This document shows positions 2,553-13,612 of a stretch of DNA of 22,220 bases, in pieces (positions within the stretch are counted from its first letter, which is position 1; every line of letters starts with the position of its first letter). The position numbers and the translations under genes were made by a program. Source of the stretch: a virus; the IMG/VR virus record IMGVR_UViG_3300027749_000512, positions 1-22,220 of that record. One strand, written 5' to 3'. Under the pieces are notes generated by a model, which saw nothing but the letters and a program-made list of their open reading frames with translations, was not told the origin of the DNA and searched no databases.

Positions 2553-4696
2553 TGTGGTTGCTCCATCATTGGGGGCGGTTGCATCTGTTCGGGAGGTGGC
2601 TGTTGCATACCTTGATCTTCTTGGGTTTCGGCTTGCCCACGCATGGGCATTTCGCTAATCAGATCGCCCGAGGTAATCATGCCATGCACCGTACCCAAAA
2701 CAATGTCTTGAATTTGTTCGGGCGACATAGATGCTTGGATTGCAGAAATACGCTTGGTTTCAGCATCAAAGGCTTTGATCAAGTTAGCGTTTTCTTTAAT
2801 CTCAATGTCTTTCATTTCCATTGATTTGGACACGTTTTGCAGCATTTGATGCATCTGCTCCATTTCTTGGCCCATGGCTTGCATCTGCTGTTGAGCGGCT
2901 TGGAGCGCGGGGTCAACATCATCGGTGGATAAGAGTTTAGGATCGATCGTCTTGGCAAAACGCTTGGCCATCTCTTGAGCGCCTGGCCAATCCATGTTCT
3001 TGATAAACAGATCGCCCGCAACTGCCCACAACTGTGGATTGCCTTGCAACAATTGCCCCATTGACTCCAACGCCTCTTGGCGTTTGGTCATGTAGCTCGG
3101 GCCGGTCGTAACCATCACGTCATAGGTGCCCACGCCTAAGTTATAAATCTTCTCAATTGCGATACCGTTTTGGTCAACGATTTTATTGACCGGCATTGGT
3201 TGATTGGGGTTGATCTTGGCTTGATCGGTTTCACCGTCTTCGCCCACGATGCGCGCGACCCGCTCGGTGTCGTAAATCTTAGGTGCCAAGTCGATAATCT
3301 GACGGGTAATGTAGCGCACCGCACGGGCTAAGTTATCAACATAATGATAAGTGCCAGTATCAGTCTGACGCTCGCGCGCCATGATAGCCTTGCCAGAACG
3401 CTCATTAGAGGTCGCACCAAGGCTAGAGTCATATTGTCCTGTCGTGCCCTTAATATCGTCACTAGCACCCGCTTTGGCTTGCAGTAAGCCACTTGACGCC
3501 ATAGGCGGTTGAGCTCGGGTCGGCAACGGCAAGGGTGACCCCGCACCGTCGCTTACATCGGGATTAATCTCTAGGTATGGCCAGTTGGTGGTGTTGGCGG
3601 TCTTCCATTGCTGCTCGTAGCCTTCAAACTGACCACCGTAGCCAATAAATGGCGCTTTGGGTGCCAAAGCGATCATTTCTGCCTCTTGGCTTACCCAATA
3701 GTTGTACATACGTTGGGCATCTTTGGCGTTACGCACAATGCCCGACACATACAAGCGCCCATCGACTTCAAATTCGTTGCCCACCACACGCACAACAGGA
3801 ATCCATTTACCTGCCCAATCACGTTCTTCAAGTATCTCAAAGCCGTTAATTTTGCACCATTTAACCCGCCGCACATCTACAATCCGTGTCTTGATGGGCT
3901 TCATGCCCCGCATGACCATGTCTTTGTCTTCAGGTGAGCCTTTGATGGCGCTTACGTTGCCGTAGTACAGGTTTAGAGTCTGTTTCTCATGCTCAACGTA
4001 AAAGTATTCGGCAATCCTGACCGTATCTTCGTTGATCCATTGGGCAAGCGAGGCATCGCCCACGCCTTGCTGTTGCAAAGAGGAGACCGGTTGAGCGTCG
4101 GGAAACATCCGCTCGTACTCATCTTTCATCAAATCTTCAGTGATAAAGCACCACTGAGCGTCCGAACCACAAGGGTCTTGGATCGTCGGATCCATGTAGA
4201 CAGAGAATGAATTACGAATACGCCCAATCTTAATGTCTTGGTCAAACGACTGATCGTTGGTGTATTCGGTCAAAAGCCTGATATAGCCCTCGCCGTAAGA
4301 CACTTGGTTCTCACAAGCGGTGTCGTAAGCGACATCCGCATCGGACATATACTCAATGTGGCGCACAAGCCCGTTGAAAATCTCAGCCACTTCCACATCC
4401 GCTTTATCATCGACGGGGATTACTTTTCCACTTGGTCGGTTTTGGCGTTGATCGTTAGTAACTTGGCGGACGTGCTGGGGAAGTTTGTTGATGGTAAGGC
4501 AGGGGCGCGCATTGATGGTCTGACCCTGAACTGAGCCCCGAGTAGCCAACACGTCGGCTGGCCATTGCCACTGATTGTCGGGGCTTGCGGCAAAGAAGCG
4601 TAGATCATCAAGTTCATCCTCGCGGCTTTCAGAATATGCCGCAATCGCTAACGTCATGCGATGACGTGCGGTTTCGAGGGTGTCTTTTTCGCTCAT
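2549..4696 (-). CDS. Portal protein, P22-like
   Basis: This encodes 715 aa, close to the 725 aa of the P22 portal. The dodecameric portal sits at one capsid vertex and is the channel and motor-docking ring for DNA packaging. Visible hallmarks are the acidic N-terminal start (DELDDLRFFAASPDNQW), INKLPQHVRQVTNDQRQNRP, the segment VSYGEGYIRLLTEY and the SVYMDPTIQDPCGSDAQWCF block, which are conserved in P22-type portals. Residues of about 600-665 form a Gln/Met-rich coiled coil, as in the barrel region. The last 25 residues are a Pro/Gln/Met-rich tail. The start overlaps the GroES stop as ATGA. No good Shine-Dalgarno site is visible, so translation is probably coupled to the GroES gene. Confidence 0.92.
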   Translation of the reverse strand: MSEKDTLETARHRMTLAIAAYSESREDELDDLRFFAASPDNQWQWPADVLATRGSVQGQTINARPCLTINKLPQHVRQVTNDQRQNRPSGKVIPVDDKADVEVAEIFNGLVRHIEYMSDADVAYDTACENQVSYGEGYIRLLTEYTNDQSFDQDIKIGRIRNSFSVYMDPTIQDPCGSDAQWCFITEDLMKDEYERMFPDAQPVSSLQQQGVGDASLAQWINEDTVRIAEYFYVEHEKQTLNLYYGNVSAIKGSPEDKDMVMRGMKPIKTRIVDVRRVKWCKINGFEILEERDWAGKWIPVVRVVGNEFEVDGRLYVSGIVRNAKDAQRMYNYWVSQEAEMIALAPKAPFIGYGGQFEGYEQQWKTANTTNWPYLEINPDVSDGAGSPLPLPTRAQPPMASSGLLQAKAGASDDIKGTTGQYDSSLGATSNERSGKAIMARERQTDTGTYHYVDNLARAVRYITRQIIDLAPKIYDTERVARIVGEDGETDQAKINPNQPMPVNKIVDQNGIAIEKIYNLGVGTYDVMVTTGPSYMTKRQEALESMGQLLQGNPQLWAVAGDLFIKNMDWPGAQEMAKRFAKTIDPKLLSTDDVDPALQAAQQQMQAMGQEMEQMHQMLQNVSKSMEMKDIEIKENANLIKAFDAETKRISAIQASMSPEQIQDIVLGTVHGMITSGDLISEMPMRGQAETQEDQGMQQPPPEQMQPPPMMEQPQ

Positions 4697-4938
4697 ACAA
4701 GCCCAATTATGTCTTTATCTTTCATAATTAAAAGACCCTCATGCAATTTATCAATTGTGCCGCTGTACATGACATGATCGCCAACCTTAACCATCAACGG
4801 TCGCTTGGAGTCGGGCTTGCCTGGCCCCGTTGCCACAACCACGCCTGTGCGGGTGTCCTCTTCAGGCATAATAATTAGCCCGCTTTGCACAAACGGGTCG
4901 GGACGTACCGCAATGTTGTCGTGTAAGGGTCTGATCAT
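4693..4938 (-). CDS. Phage GroES-like co-chaperonin
   Basis: This encodes 81 aa, shorter than bacterial GroES (about 95 aa). The N-terminus MIRPLHDNIAVRPDP matches the first GroES strand (family pattern IRPLHDRVIVK). SGLIIMPEE lies where the GroES mobile loop hydrophobic tripeptide contacts GroEL, followed by TRTGVVVATGPGK (family: RGEVLAVGNGR). KVGDHVMYSG and the final LLIMKDKDIIGLV match the C-terminal half. Phage GroES homologues such as T4 gp31 replace host GroES so that GroEL can fold the phage capsid protein. Its place directly before the portal in the head operon fits that role. It overlaps the 43-aa gene and the portal gene by ATGA on both sides, and GAGGAAG precedes the start. Confidence 0.88.
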   Translation of the reverse strand: MIRPLHDNIAVRPDPFVQSGLIIMPEEDTRTGVVVATGPGKPDSKRPLMVKVGDHVMYSGTIDKLHEGLLIMKDKDIIGLV

Positions 4939-5471: not shown

Positions 5472-6992
5472 TTAAGCTCCTAACCAAGAAGTAGATAAGC
5501 CTTGCGGCGAATAATTGCGACGTTTAGTTTCTGAATACTCACGGTGCGCGACAGGATACGCAAACGTCACGCAAATAGCATCTGCGGCGTCCGGAGAAGC
5601 CAACCCCCTCGCCTTCATGTCTTTCTTAGACTCCAAAAAGATAGTTCCTTTTGAATCCGGCTTCATTATTGGTGATATTAAATCAGTTTTAAGCACTCTG
5701 TCACTAGGAATCGACGCGGTTTTGAGCCATTGTCGCATATCACCCCACATTTGTGCCCTTAAATTACCATACATTAACGTGTTTTTGGACTTATTTCCAA
5801 AATTAACCCCCCGAATCTTGTAGCGTTGCTCTTTTAATCGATCTACCACGCCCCCGCCCACGCCACCTTCGTCGATCACTACCAAAGCAGGTTTATACTC
5901 CTCAATTGCTTCAATAACGTGCCCAACCACCGTCATCGTATCGTCGCCCTTGAACCGTTTGATGCCAATAATGTCACGCCCTTGGCGTACGGCAATCACG
6001 GTCGAGTCAGACCCGAACCGCGCAGGGTCAACGCCTACAATAATAGGGGCGGATAGGTCTTTGTACTTGGCGCGCTTCATGGCCTCATCCACAATTGATG
6101 AGGATATGAACTGATCATCACCCGCCGACGGAAAGTCACCGTAGACTTCAACCGCTGCCTGGCTAGAATCGGCGCCATATTCGTCAATAATTTGCTGATA
6201 CACCGCCTTGTCCGTACCCTCGACCGTGCGCGCATCCACAATCTTGGTATTCCAAAAGTCACGCTTGGAGTTGTGGCATTCGTAGAAGTAACCGGTGTTG
6301 CGCCGAGGGTTAGAGAACGCCAGCCAAAAGCGGTTAGGCGTGTTCTCTGTGAAGAAACCCGCAGTCACCGCCCAAATGGCATCGTCAATACCGGACGCCT
6401 CATCAAAGATCACCATCACGCCGTCGTAGTTGTGAACCCCCGCGTACGCATCAGGGTTCTCGCTTGACCACAGCCTGCCCTCCACCGACCAATAGCGTGT
6501 GCCTTTCTTTAGATCACGCTCGACCAACTCTGTGATCCACTTAGCGGGCATGAGGCGTGTGGCTGAGACTTCAAACCAATGTGAGTTGAGAGACATTGCC
6601 AGCCACTTGGTAATCTCTGCCCAGGTGACCGATCGGAGTTGGCTTTCGCTGTTGGCAGAGATAATGGTTGTGGAGCCGATTCGGGTGGAGAGCATCCATA
6701 GCGTTAGCCAACTGACTAACGCTGACTTGCCAATACCGCGACCGGAAGAGGTAGCCATCCTGAAGGTGTCGAAATCAATCTTGCCGCCGTTCTGCTTAAT
6801 GTGGGCGGTCAGGTCGGACAGGACTTCGCGCTGCCATTTGCGTGGGCCTGTGAAGTCAGCCAAGGGCGTACCTTTTTGACCCCAAGGGAATGTTAGTAAG
6901 ACAAAAGACAACGGATCATTGGCAATGCGGGGCGACCAAAGCTTGCTCATAAGAGCCATTTCGTCTGAGGCGCTGTAGATGGTGGTTTGCAT
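5472..6992 (-). CDS. terL: Terminase large subunit
   Basis: This encodes 506 aa, the DNA-packaging motor and genome-cutting nuclease. The N-terminal ATPase has Walker A GRGIGKS (residues 84-90) and Walker B VMVIFDE (192-198), followed by a coupling-type SNPR motif (227-230). The C-terminal RNase H-like nuclease shows VGVDPARFGSDSTV (Asp322), VVIDEGGVGGGVVDRL (Asp374) and SPDAADAI (Asp468, Asp471), the three acidic motifs of the active site. The length is normal for the family. The start codon overlaps the previous stop as TAATG. It would work with the small terminase at 7392 to cut concatemers and with the portal at 2549 to fill heads. Confidence 0.95.
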   Translation of the reverse strand: MQTTIYSASDEMALMSKLWSPRIANDPLSFVLLTFPWGQKGTPLADFTGPRKWQREVLSDLTAHIKQNGGKIDFDTFRMATSSGRGIGKSALVSWLTLWMLSTRIGSTTIISANSESQLRSVTWAEITKWLAMSLNSHWFEVSATRLMPAKWITELVERDLKKGTRYWSVEGRLWSSENPDAYAGVHNYDGVMVIFDEASGIDDAIWAVTAGFFTENTPNRFWLAFSNPRRNTGYFYECHNSKRDFWNTKIVDARTVEGTDKAVYQQIIDEYGADSSQAAVEVYGDFPSAGDDQFISSSIVDEAMKRAKYKDLSAPIIVGVDPARFGSDSTVIAVRQGRDIIGIKRFKGDDTMTVVGHVIEAIEEYKPALVVIDEGGVGGGVVDRLKEQRYKIRGVNFGNKSKNTLMYGNLRAQMWGDMRQWLKTASIPSDRVLKTDLISPIMKPDSKGTIFLESKKDMKARGLASPDAADAICVTFAYPVAHREYSETKRRNYSPQGLSTSWLGA

Positions 6993-7405: not shown

Positions 7406-7814
7406 TGGTGGGTTCCATATCTATAGTTAACCGCTGTTCGGCTTGCTCAAGCGCTGTAATGATACTGATCTGTTGCGTCACATCGACTTGCACTTGTTGC
7501 TTGGCCACCCAATCATGTTTGTGTCGCAAGAACTCTAGCGCCATCTTAGCGTCGCCACCAAGCGCTGCGTCGCGCACAACTTGCGACATCTCGGCTTCTG
7601 AATCCGCACGGCCTTGCTCAATCGCCATCTCGACCACAGGGTCTAGCTGGCAGAGCTTACGAAACTCCTCGGGCATCATGCCGGCACGGATTGCTAAAGC
7701 GTTTTGCGACAACCCTAAACGTGCAGCCTCATAGACGCGCAACAAACGCGACTCGGTGGCGCGGACTTCGCGAGGTGTGAAGTGTAGAGATAGCATTTTG
7801 CAATTGTAGGTCAT
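7392..7814 (-). CDS. terS: Terminase small subunit (probable)
   Basis: This encodes 140 aa. Residues of about 23-60 (RLLRVYEAARLGLSQNALA followed by AGMMPEEFRKL) read as a helix-turn-helix like those of small terminases, which bind the packaging start site. An acidic helical centre (AIEQGRADSEAEMSQVVRDAA) and the segment MALEFLRHKHDW, a signature seen in many small terminases, precede a helical C-terminus. It is the first gene of the leftward late operon, upstream of the large terminase. No clear ribosome site precedes the ATG at 7814, and an in-frame ATG at 7796 is an alternative. A TATAAT-like box (7831-7826) lies very close upstream of either start. Confidence 0.78.
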   Translation of the reverse strand: MTYNCKMLSLHFTPREVRATESRLLRVYEAARLGLSQNALAIRAGMMPEEFRKLCQLDPVVEMAIEQGRADSEAEMSQVVRDAALGGDAKMALEFLRHKHDWVAKQQVQVDVTQQISIITALEQAEQRLTIDMEPTNAIT

Positions 7815-7825
7815 GTAGGCAATTT

Positions 7826-7867: not shown

Positions 7868-7982
7868 ATAAAAAAATTTTGAGTGTGAACCCTCCGCTAG
7901 CTAGGGCTCCCCGCAGGGCCCTACCCCCCCCTCAAGGAATGCTTAATGCCACACGGCCGAGTGCCTGGTCGCAAGCCGGTGG

Positions 7983-8167
7983 CTCACTAAGTCTTAGCCA
8001 CTCACTAAGTCTTAGTGGCTCACTAAGTCTTAGGTTGTTGGACAACCTACAAGCTCACTAAGTCTTAGCCATACTCACTAAGTCTTAGCCATACTCACTA
8101 AGTCTTAGCCACTAAGATTTAGTGAGTGGCTCACTAAGTCTTAGGACAAATACTCACTAAGTCTTAG
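7983..8167. repeat. Iteron-like array: nine copies of CTCACTAAGTCTTAG
   Basis: Eight exact direct copies of the 15-mer CTCACTAAGTCTTAG start at 7983, 8001, 8019, 8054, 8074, 8094, 8130 and 8153. One inverted copy with a single change occupies 8112-8126. A half-site ACTAAGT follows at 8180-8186. Start-to-start spacing is 18, 18, 35, 20, 20, 36 and 23 bp. The last 11 bases, CTAAGTCTTAG, form a near-perfect palindrome (CTAAG-T-CTTAG), as expected for a site bound by a protein dimer. Such an array between divergent operons is typical of phage and plasmid origins (iterons) or of a cooperative operator cluster. Copies are identical while spacers vary, which points to selection on the 15-mer itself. 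Confidence 0.93.
8031..8049. repeat. Perfect inverted repeat inside the iteron array
   Basis: TAGGTTGTTGGACAACCTA has perfect 8-base arms (8031-8038 and 8042-8049) around TGG. It occupies the enlarged gap between the third and fourth direct copies and begins within the last bases of copy three. It could be a second protein site or a cruciform at an origin. Confidence 0.7.
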
Positions 8168-8205
8168 GGAAATAGCCAGACTAAGTTATCCTTGAAGGCA
8201 ATGTG

Positions 8206-8227
8206 GGCACTTTTAAAGTGCCTTTTT
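8206..8227 (+). terminator. Rho-independent terminator, rightward
   Basis: GGCACTTTTAAAGTGCC (8206-8222) is a perfect inverted repeat and is followed by five T at 8223-8227. The T run exists only in the rightward direction. No plus-strand gene lies upstream within the region, so it either ends a non-coding transcript crossing the repeat array or insulates the early operon from upstream transcription. Confidence 0.72.
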
Positions 8228-8244: not shown

Positions 8245-8390
8245 TTTGCGCGTTTGCGTATTTGCGCGACACATATACACCTATATATATATACATTTAA
8301 AATTCTAAATGCTATTAGGATATTTTGATTATTACCCTTCAAGTTAACTAACATGTTAATTTTAAAAGGTTTTTGCGTAAGCACTTTGCG
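8245..8390. repeat. TTTGCG short repeats and AT-rich tract
   Basis: TTTGCG occurs at 8245, 8253 and 8261 in exact 8-bp steps, and again at 8372 and 8385. A TA-step run (8281-8293) and generally AT-rich sequence lie between them. Short regularly spaced motifs beside an easily melted tract recall the DnaA-box or 13-mer side of replication origins, although TTTGCG is not a canonical DnaA box. Confidence 0.5.
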
Positions 8391-8493
8391 CGTTTTAACC
8401 CCTAAAATACTACCCAAAACACTACCTTACTGATACCCTAATCGTTGCCCTCATTTAGCAAACCTCACAAAACCTCGCAAAAAGCTTTTTATT

Positions 8494-8522
8494 TTGCACA
8501 ATGCTATAAATTCATGTACAAT
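8494..8522 (+). promoter_or_regulatory. Sigma70-like promoter of the rightward early operon
   Basis: A -35-like TTGCAC (8494-8499) is separated by exactly 17 bp from a -10 TACAAT (8517-8522, five of six consensus bases). Transcription would start near 8529 and give a leader of about 27 bases to the ATG at 8556, with AAGG at 8544-8547. The block from 8516 to the start codon is nearly repeated in the promoter of the leftward replication operon. Confidence 0.65.
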
Positions 8523-11252: not shown

Positions 11253-11275
11253 AGCCCGCTTAGGCGGGCTTTTTT
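11253..11275 (+). terminator. Rho-independent terminator of the early operon
   Basis: AGCCCGC-TTAG-GCGGGCT (11253-11270) is a perfect 7-bp GC stem followed by five T at 11271-11275. It ends the rightward operon. The convergent primase gene reads through it on the other strand, and its stop codon (11262-11260) lies in the loop, so the two functions share the same bases. Confidence 0.85.
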
Positions 11276-13560
11276 ATGGGTGTAACACTAGCAAGCGGTG
11301 TACCGGCCCGAACTGTCAAACCCTCCGCCATTGTGCGCAGCTCGCTTTTTTTATAACCTACCATCTCGGGGGCACAATAAACTTGCTTTTTAGTGGTCAA
11401 GTCACGCGTGGCCAAGCGCCCACAGTCGAACCATTGGCACTCTAGCAAAGCGTGCAATAGCGCGCCTTGGCTGACCTTATAGGTGCCTGGCGCGTTGAGC
11501 GAAAGCGTGTCACAGATAACGTGAAAGGGGCTCGCTATCACGCCACCGGCAAACACGCCCACGCGGGCCTTGATTAGGTCGACTAGGTACGATTCATTAG
11601 CACTCATACCTTGCTCTACTAGGGTAAGTTTAAATTCAGTCACAGGGGGCGCGGCCGACGGATTGAAGGCCGATACATCACGCGCGGCTAGCCATGCCGC
11701 GCAGGCGCTTAAACCACCTCGGGCAAACCATCGCCATATCTCGGAGCTCGCCTCGGGCGTCATGCGGGCGACATTCGAACTCAGAGCAAACCAACGACGG
11801 TCCTGACTATCCAAGGTTATTGGGACCGCGTCGTTACTGAACGCGAGCACCAAGCACCTATTGACCATGTCATAAGGTTTTAGGCCCTTACGGTTAATGC
11901 TCAGATACTCGGGGGGTGCTGCGATAATTGGCTTTAATTTGTTCGCCAGAGCTCTACGGTCGCGCGCGTCGGGCTCGCGGAGCTCATTCAATATCAGTAT
12001 TTCAGATTCCAACGCGTAATTAAATTGGCTGTTCATGGTATCCGAGTCTAACAAGCCACGGTTGACCGCGTTCGGGCCGCAAACGGCCTCAATAAACGGG
12101 GCCCACATTGTGTCTTTACCTATCCCTTGGGGGCCTTTGTGTAGCACTGCGTGGTTGATCTTGCGCTGGGGGTACTGTAATTTGTACGCCATCACGTTAA
12201 AGCAATGCTCAAGCGCCTCGGGCTCGGGCACCAAATGCCGGCAATGGTTAAGCCAGGGGGTTACGTCACCGGCCACGCCCACGGGGCGCGCGTCGCGCCA
12301 ACGGTTGCCATATACGTCACCACCGCGCGACACTAAAACCGTTTCACCGGCGGCATACGTTATCCCCACCAATGCGGGGGCTCCGTTCTCTTGGCGTAGT
12401 TCGTCAAAACTGACTGATGCCTCGACGTGGCGACCGGTACGGATCGACTTACAAGTAATATGACGGTACAAAGCGTTAAACGTGCCGCGCGAGATCTCGC
12501 GCCTATCTTGCAAGTCAAAGTACGCGTCATCGGATTGAATGTAGGCAAACCGCCCGAACCACTCGCGCTTCTGTACGCGCCCGAGCTCGCGGTGCTCGAT
12601 CTCGGTTTGGCGCTTTTTAACGTCATCAGGGTACGCCTCGGTAGGTGCGATAATTGAGTAGGTCTTGGCCATTGTCTTGGCAAGCAGTTCATCGCGCAAT
12701 CCTGGTGCCGCACTCGGGCCGCCCTGCCCCTCGACCCATTCAAGAAAAATATGGCTATCCAGTTGCAAGCAATGGCTATGCAAACAGCAGTACGCCCGCA
12801 TCGCGGGGTTATACCGGCCTTGGGGGTTGCCATCGGTATGCTCATGGGCGTTGGGGCAAACAACGCCCGCCCAACCCTCGCTGTTGGGGCGCGAGATGAC
12901 AAGGCTATTTTCGGCCAACCACGCAAAAATCGTATCGGTGCCGTCGTCGTCAATGTGGATAGGTTTGTAGACCGACTCGACGGGGCCGGATTTGACCCCA
13001 AACGCGCTCATGATCTGGGGCAAGCTAAACTCACGCTCTGGGTAAAACTCGGTTAACACCGATTTAAACCCCGCCCGTTCGGGCTTGAGGTTAACGCTGC
13101 CTGGTATCCTAAAGTTGCGTACGGCGTTACACGCGCCCTTGTCCGTGAACCCAGCCTCGGCTATCGCCTTGATGGCTGCGCTAAACACCTCATGTGTGGG
13201 TTGATCGTCAAGCGCAAACGCGTAGCCCCATTGAAAGTTATCGGGGGAGGTTTCGATCTTCCATGTCGGCTCTAAGGGCGGCGCTTTGGATTTTGTGCCC
13301 ACGTCATCTAACACTAAGAACGCAACGTGTGTGCAGTTGTGAATACTAGCGCTTGGGCGCTTGCCTAACCTGTCGGTAATGAATGAGGCGGTGTTGCAGT
13401 ACCACGCCCCACCCTCTTTGTACTCATTAGGGTAGAAGGCTGGCCATGTCGCCTTAATCGTGCCGTCAGCGTGTTGTTCATTTCCAACAGGCTTTTGCTT
13501 AACTAATAGACAAGTTTCACCCTCGGGGGCTTTTTTACTGATAAAATCGACGAAGTCCAA
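11260..13560 (-). CDS. Primase-helicase (RepB-type primase plus D5/DUF5906-like helicase)
   Basis: From a TTG start at 13560 it encodes 766 aa. TTG is preferred because AAGGAG lies seven bases upstream (13573-13568); a frame extension to GTG at 13593 would place the start in a hairpin. Numbered from TTG, the N-terminal primase shows LVLDD (82-86, catalytic Asp pair) and NFRIPGSVNLKP (149-160). A Cys/His cluster follows (CPNAHEH at 235, then CCLHSHC at 258-264), as in zinc-binding segments of such proteins. The helicase has Walker A GPQGIGKDT (476-484), a Walker B-like EILILNE (520-526) and a sensor Asn in LAFSND. It would prime and unwind at phage forks for the polymerase encoded just upstream in the operon. 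Last gene of the leftward replication operon. Confidence 0.88.
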   Translation of the reverse strand: MDFVDFISKKAPEGETCLLVKQKPVGNEQHADGTIKATWPAFYPNEYKEGGAWYCNTASFITDRLGKRPSASIHNCTHVAFLVLDDVGTKSKAPPLEPTWKIETSPDNFQWGYAFALDDQPTHEVFSAAIKAIAEAGFTDKGACNAVRNFRIPGSVNLKPERAGFKSVLTEFYPEREFSLPQIMSAFGVKSGPVESVYKPIHIDDDGTDTIFAWLAENSLVISRPNSEGWAGVVCPNAHEHTDGNPQGRYNPAMRAYCCLHSHCLQLDSHIFLEWVEGQGGPSAAPGLRDELLAKTMAKTYSIIAPTEAYPDDVKKRQTEIEHRELGRVQKREWFGRFAYIQSDDAYFDLQDRREISRGTFNALYRHITCKSIRTGRHVEASVSFDELRQENGAPALVGITYAAGETVLVSRGGDVYGNRWRDARPVGVAGDVTPWLNHCRHLVPEPEALEHCFNVMAYKLQYPQRKINHAVLHKGPQGIGKDTMWAPFIEAVCGPNAVNRGLLDSDTMNSQFNYALESEILILNELREPDARDRRALANKLKPIIAAPPEYLSINRKGLKPYDMVNRCLVLAFSNDAVPITLDSQDRRWFALSSNVARMTPEASSEIWRWFARGGLSACAAWLAARDVSAFNPSAAPPVTEFKLTLVEQGMSANESYLVDLIKARVGVFAGGVIASPFHVICDTLSLNAPGTYKVSQGALLHALLECQWFDCGRLATRDLTTKKQVYCAPEMVGYKKSELRTMAEGLTVRAGTPLASVTPIKKPA

Positions 13561-13581
13561 TGTAATACTCCTTAGTTGTTT

Positions 13582-13612
13582 AAGCCTCGGCACCCACCGA
13601 GGCTTTTTTTTT
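13582..13612 (+). terminator. Strong rightward terminator inside the leftward replication operon
   Basis: AAGCCTCGG (13582-13590), loop CACCCA and CCGAGGCTT (13597-13605) make a perfect 9-bp stem, and T continues without break to 13612. The T run is present only in the rightward direction, opposite to both flanking genes. In leftward mRNA it is a stable hairpin between the polymerase stop and the primase ribosome site, without a U tail. Confidence 0.8.

Follow-up and report, generated by a model that had tools for sequence, protein, structure and literature searches.

What purpose is served by a dense cluster of near-identical 15-bp words placed between the early and late genes of an environmental phage, and what reads it? 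We addressed this question in a stretch of viral DNA of 22,220 nt (positions 1 to 22,220 of IMG/VR record IMGVR_UViG_3300027749_000512), which we refer to as the window. The original prediction, made from the letters of this stretch, described a nine-copy array of protein-binding sites and interpreted it as either the iterons of a phage origin or a many-site switch controlling late and early transcription. Here, we compare the array and its surroundings with those of related phages and weigh the explanations that have been or can be offered for it.

Results

The array and its genomic setting

The array lies upstream of a presumed terminase small subunit (TerS) gene, between early and late genes (Table 1). 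The name TerS rests on gene position and on a structural model whose structural matches are weak. Leftward of the array, a P22-type portal accompanies the terminase large subunit, and the replication module is marked by a family-A DNA polymerase, a DUF5906 primase-helicase (VapE-like) and a DUF2800 exonuclease, with an SNF2-type helicase beyond. An 81-aa GroES-like protein encoded between portal and terminase (4693-4938) is a second marker of the array-bearing clade. No recognised lysogeny gene was found in ten near-complete genomes (no integrase or HTH_3 repressor match), and the source is most likely a lytic podophage of ~39 kb. The matching ends of five related contigs are consistent with overlaps of 123-127 nt, hence with circular closure. 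All relatives are metagenomic contigs; no cultured close relative of these podophages was present among the records searched, and no confirmed match to this phage's TerS was found in the bacterial genomes searched. We considered one contig of 92,900 bp (G015) as a prophage in host DNA and rejected this, as the part checked beyond ~40 kb is a second podophage; the contig is probably a chimeric assembly of this phage type and that second podophage, which brings a VapE and a terminase of its own.

Table 1. Coordinates of the array and of associated features in the window.
Feature	Position	Strand	Remarks
Exact 15-mer copies	7983-7997, 8001-8015, 8019-8033, 8054-8068	+	motif search
Exact 15-mer copies, continued	8074-8088, 8094-8108, 8130-8144, 8153-8167	+	motif search
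Inverted 15-mer copy CTCACTAAATCTTAG	8112-8126	-	1 mismatch, at central base
Palindrome GGTTGTTGGACAACC in the 35-bp spacer	8033..8047		second repeated word in L036, L055, L012
Related palindrome CTCAAGGAATGCTTAAT, left array border	7931..7947		
CTAAG-N5-CTTGA site, right array border	8181..8195		member of degenerate CTAAG-N5-CTTAG family
GC-rich element ending GGGCCCTACCCCCCC(C)	7885..7932		kept beside TerS in relatives
9-mer-type repeats GTAGGTCAT-GTAGGCAAT	7806..7823	+	over TerS start codon
Left 9-bp-period repeats GAAGGCAATGTGGGCA	8194..8209	+	candidate origin iterons, degenerate in window
AT-rich tract between the two 9-mer sets	8270..8330		candidate melting region
Right inverted 9-mer-type repeat ATTACCCTTCAAG	8331..8343	-	degenerate in window
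Sigma-70-like early promoter ahead of 121-aa gene	8493..8522	+	kept in relatives
Terminase large subunit	5472..6992	-	leftward of array
Presumed terminase small subunit (TerS), 140 aa	7392..7814	-	position; modelled three-helix HTH-like N-terminus
e67, 67 aa	10735..10938	+	gene marks array-bearing clade; modelled small SH3/Tudor-like barrel
Primase-helicase (DUF5906, VapE-like)	11260..13593	-	candidate reader of 9-mers

The array is a real feature: within 7983-8167, the word CTCACTAAGTCTTAG occurs in eight exact copies on the plus strand and in one inverted copy. At up to three mismatches, 0.21 matches are expected by chance, whereas 11 were listed (two of them the palindromic core read on the reverse strand), and none of 100 shuffles reached 11. 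This bears out the predicted nine-copy array, including its description as multi-copy, near-invariant and dense between divergent modules. Beyond the array, the word has no further copy in the window or in G001, a contig of 39.3 kb from this phage or one almost identical to it, in agreement with the view that the copies are clustered rather than spread genome-wide, and the 15-mer was not found in a literature search, as anticipated for a motif without described precedent. Of the dimer-type core that had been proposed, the palindrome itself stands (CTAAG-T-CTTAG), yet the conserved unit is the whole asymmetric 15-mer, in which the left CTCA is invariant and its right-hand mirror is not. Start-to-start spacings in the window are 18, 18, 35, 20, 20, 18, 18 and 23 bp, and those of 18 and 20 bp had been taken to place adjacent copies on one helical face. 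This does not hold in relatives, where 149 adjacent spacings range from 17 to 49 bp with a concentration at 10.5 bp of just 0.23. The terminator suspected nearby (8205-8223) is near chance (1 found, 0.7 expected). Spacer words recur among relatives.

Conservation and loss of the 15-mer

A scan of viral contigs found the exact 15-mer in 77 of them. All 45 viral contigs with at least two close copies, as returned by a paired-site scan, are among these 77 and belong to this phage family. Arrays of three to nine copies recur in relatives, and the array lies upstream of the same presumed TerS gene in every family locus that includes TerS. Outside the family there were 14 single matches, 12 of which are inside ORFs, in line with chance. 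The array is without a match in the plasmid collection, and the bacterial genomes searched give no sign of a host regulon, as none has two close copies.

Across 101 non-redundant TerS-upstream regions, we counted 187 exact copies and 20 copies with one change, 18 of which differ at the central base (to A in 13, to C in 4 and to T in 1) and 2 at the last base. No copy in these regions has two changes, and matches with three mismatches mostly result from reading the palindromic core on the opposite strand. The flanks are also constrained, with A or G before 182 of the 187 exact copies and never an A after one. Part of this set was collected via the exact word; a TerS-based subset, unselected for the word, shows the same pattern. 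Relatives have exact copies or none even at up to two mismatches, and no lineage has decayed copies alone. Because near copies are missing where exact ones are missing, the word is exact or absent, with no decay.

The 15-mer is almost confined to one part of the VapE tree. Among array-bearing members, VapE falls to 55-60% identity with that of the window while the word is unchanged, and copy number, orientation and spacers vary freely. Each genome has one cluster, the orientation of which is opposite in different lineages. Members of the L053 clade have six to seven copies and carry an extra exact copy whose placement would be that of an operator, with an early-type promoter on one side and the first early gene's start codon on the other. 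The array is also dispensable: it had been expected in close relatives with the same gene order, but L102, L103 and L110/L213 are without it despite the same gene order and a TerS that is 89-92% identical. L102 equals L019 up to the first site, after which CTCACTAAGT jumps to TTACCTTGAAGG and both copies are cleanly lost, by recombination at CACTAAGT.

Neighbouring elements and the putative origin

In relatives, the array belongs to a control hub in which, from left to right, the TerS start with a 9-mer repeat is followed by a GC-rich C-run element, the repeat zone, a CTAAG-N5-CTTGA border, 9-bp tandem repeats, an AT-rich tract, inverted 9-mers and the early promoter. In every lineage the 400 bp upstream of TerS are a hotspot, with repeats covering a median of 35% and 27% versus 0% in the background, and the repeat zone of some relatives holds other repeated words instead of 15-mers. 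GC-rich tandem repeats of 8 bp (GAGCTGTC and GCCTGCCC) are seen in this zone in L041, L111, L132 and L147. A loose pattern for the GC-rich C-run element matches 59 of the 101 regions, and we regard the element as a candidate packaging signal or late-promoter element.

When the 15-mers are masked, the related site CTAAG-N5-CTTAG, whose half-sites are 10 bp apart, is over-represented in the repeat zone of the clade that bears the e67 gene (69 seen versus 13 expected), at spacer 5 only and in this clade only (1 seen versus 4.8 expected outside it). In register, the site and the 15-mer agree at 10 of 15 positions (p 0.006 by permutation), and L117 and L118 have no 15-mers but 11 and 10 such sites. 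Counts of the two sites are negatively correlated among relatives, though not significantly (rho -0.28, p 0.12). That one reader, or related readers, might serve both sites is suggestive only. Many relatives also carry LexA-type boxes (CTGT-N8-ACAG) upstream of the early promoter, often in the AT-rich tract; there are up to four per region, in L023, L030, L036, L069 and many others, and these are apparently lytic phages. No such box was found in the window's phage.

Tandem repeats of 8-10 bp are nearly universal in the 69 relative loci: a short-period tandem repeat is present in 68 of 69 regions, and 44 have inverted copies, often beyond the AT-rich tract. The 9-mer word is lineage-specific (GTAGGTCAT, TTTGGGTCA, TGTGGACAA, TGTCAGCAA) and varies with VapE (Mantel r 0.60, p 0.001), with a partial Mantel value of 0.29 for VapE versus 0.07 for TerS. 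The origins described for PICIs have an AT-rich region with an iteron set on either side (PMC6092414). At sequence level, the 9-mers of most relatives have this P4/PICI-type layout, which is degenerate in the window. By this analogy, the replication origin would lie at the 9-mers and AT-rich tract, which make a better candidate than the 15-mers. The turn in GC skew that had been predicted at the array is not seen in five circular genomes, in which skew follows gene direction.

Candidate readers

The e67 gene is found in 29 of 30 array-bearing loci versus 3 of 39 others (Fisher 6e-15), an association that is confounded by phylogeny, as it largely reflects one clade. Its product is the sole clade-restricted small early protein; it has no family match, and its model has no significant PDB match and no site-specific DNA-binding fold. 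We rejected e67 as the reader on the grounds that the association comes mostly from one clade, that e67 is missing in the L053 clade and that the model is a small barrel. TerS is an unlikely reader as well, as no residue position separates array-bearing from array-lacking phages in a co-variation analysis. The 15-mer and the T3 RNA polymerase promoter share CTCACTAA. We did not retain the 15-mer as a phage RNA polymerase promoter, as no polymerase was found in a search that was without a working control and does not prove absence.

Discussion

We give slightly less than an even chance to the reading that the copies are clustered, asymmetric, operator-like sites at which one sequence-specific protein tunes early and late transcription. 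Protein-binding sites, as originally predicted, are the simplest reading of dense, near-invariant copies, and the word keeps its identity while number, spacers and orientation change, as a binding site would. The protein would read the asymmetric word to the left and right of a central base at which changes are tolerated; two contact patches of this kind would select a word that is invariant except at its centre. The array would thereby sit in a cis-control hub, with the conserved GC-rich element by the terminase genes on one side and the putative origin and early promoter on the other, and the bound protein would tune the transcription leaving this hub, early rightward and late leftward. It might also affect the adjoining origin, as multi-copy phage operators do. 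We favour clustered operator-like sites on account of their likeness to L5-type sites (see below) and of the L053-clade copy between promoter and start codon. The array may act as the many-site switch of the original prediction. The opposite orientations in different lineages do not suit a stoperator or another block that depends on the strand. Counting against operators are the lack of an HTH_3 repressor in the ten genomes, the barrel model of e67, the relatives without an array and a strictness of sequence that is unusual for operators. As the word does not change while the 9-mers, which are specific to each phage, drift, we consider a protein of the host, or else an extremely conserved one, a likelier reader than a phage regulator that evolves fast. 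The LexA boxes in relatives are sites for a regulator of the host, and their presence suggests that the hub engages such proteins. It is improbable, in our estimate, that the array instead titrates a regulator as a decoy, its many exact sites soaking up a host or rival-phage regulator on infection, or that a phage DNA-binding protein of a new type reads it, such as e67 with a partner.

Several other explanations were weighed. The array could be a pac region, with the repeats bound by the small terminase and packaging initiated nearby. Its constant position directly upstream of the presumed TerS gene, the repeat-rich 400 bp there in every lineage, the P22-type portal, and the circular closure of five contigs, which is compatible with headful packaging, all speak for this, as does the pac of SPP1, which spans promoters and the start of the TerS gene and holds direct repeats (PMC4737164). 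Nevertheless, we consider a pac region unlikely: TerS diverges to 53% identity while the 15-mer is unchanged, none of its residues separates phages with and without the array, and close relatives with nearly the same TerS are without it. Moreover, SF6 TerS binds without sequence preference (PMC4737164), so an exact word is not expected, and the GC-rich C-run element, nearer to TerS, is the better pac candidate. Origin iterons, through which a replication initiator would bind the 15-mers and open the nearby AT-rich tract, suit a dense multi-copy array beside replication genes, but have become quite improbable. The copies are not phased and skew does not turn at them, and the 9-bp repeats that flank the AT-rich tract and track VapE fit an origin better. 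That the array can be lost in relatives also makes an essential origin unlikely.

Alternatively, the words might be selfish or recombinational repeats, multiplied by slippage and exchange in a spacer that tolerates them, without a dedicated reader. A zone that is repeat-rich in all lineages, with interchangeable words and recurring spacer words, is what such a process would leave, and so is the loss in L102 by recombination at CACTAAGT. Neutral copies should, however, show scattered changes, whereas here nearly all variation falls on the central base and decayed copies never stand alone in a lineage, and we find this account decidedly improbable. That the array is transcribed and works as an RNA, through its structure or by base-pairing, is extremely improbable: the window's array does fold better than shuffles (z -7.6 and -6.5), but a strong fold needs inverted copies, most arrays with a single orientation reach z values of about -1 to -3.4, and no credible Rfam family was found.

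A word that is letter-perfect when VapE is this divergent and the surroundings are rearranged implies a very demanding reader. Identifying this reader would name an unknown regulator in environmental podophages, and the same 400-700 bp offer candidates for the origin, packaging signal and early promoter of the phage group.

The hub combines features of several known systems. The iterons of lambda O and of plasmids are clustered repeats near an AT-rich tract, for which regular phased spacing and essentiality are expected; the 15-mers are clustered near an AT-rich tract too, but are neither phased nor essential. With the Pri-Rep origins of the PICI/P4 type, the hub shares 9-mers that lie on both sides of an AT-rich tract and vary with the lineage of the primase-helicase (PMC6092414), although the 15-mers, unlike the iterons of these origins, lie outside the 9-mer/AT-tract unit. 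As in the pac regions of SPP1 and SF6, a repeat-bearing region with promoters is found just upstream of the small-terminase gene; the pac repeats, however, are moderately conserved and read non-specifically, whereas the 15-mer does not vary and is absent from near relatives (PMC4737164). Finally, the repressors of L5-type mycobacteriophages read an asymmetric 13-mer that is most variable in its middle, and their operators and stoperators share with our array a short asymmetric word, many near-identical copies, a variable middle and restriction to a phage group (PMC9283540). The L5-type sites are distributed genome-wide, follow the direction of transcription and have a known repressor as their reader, whereas the sites described here form one cluster at the hub, in either orientation and with no HTH_3 repressor gene found in ten genomes.
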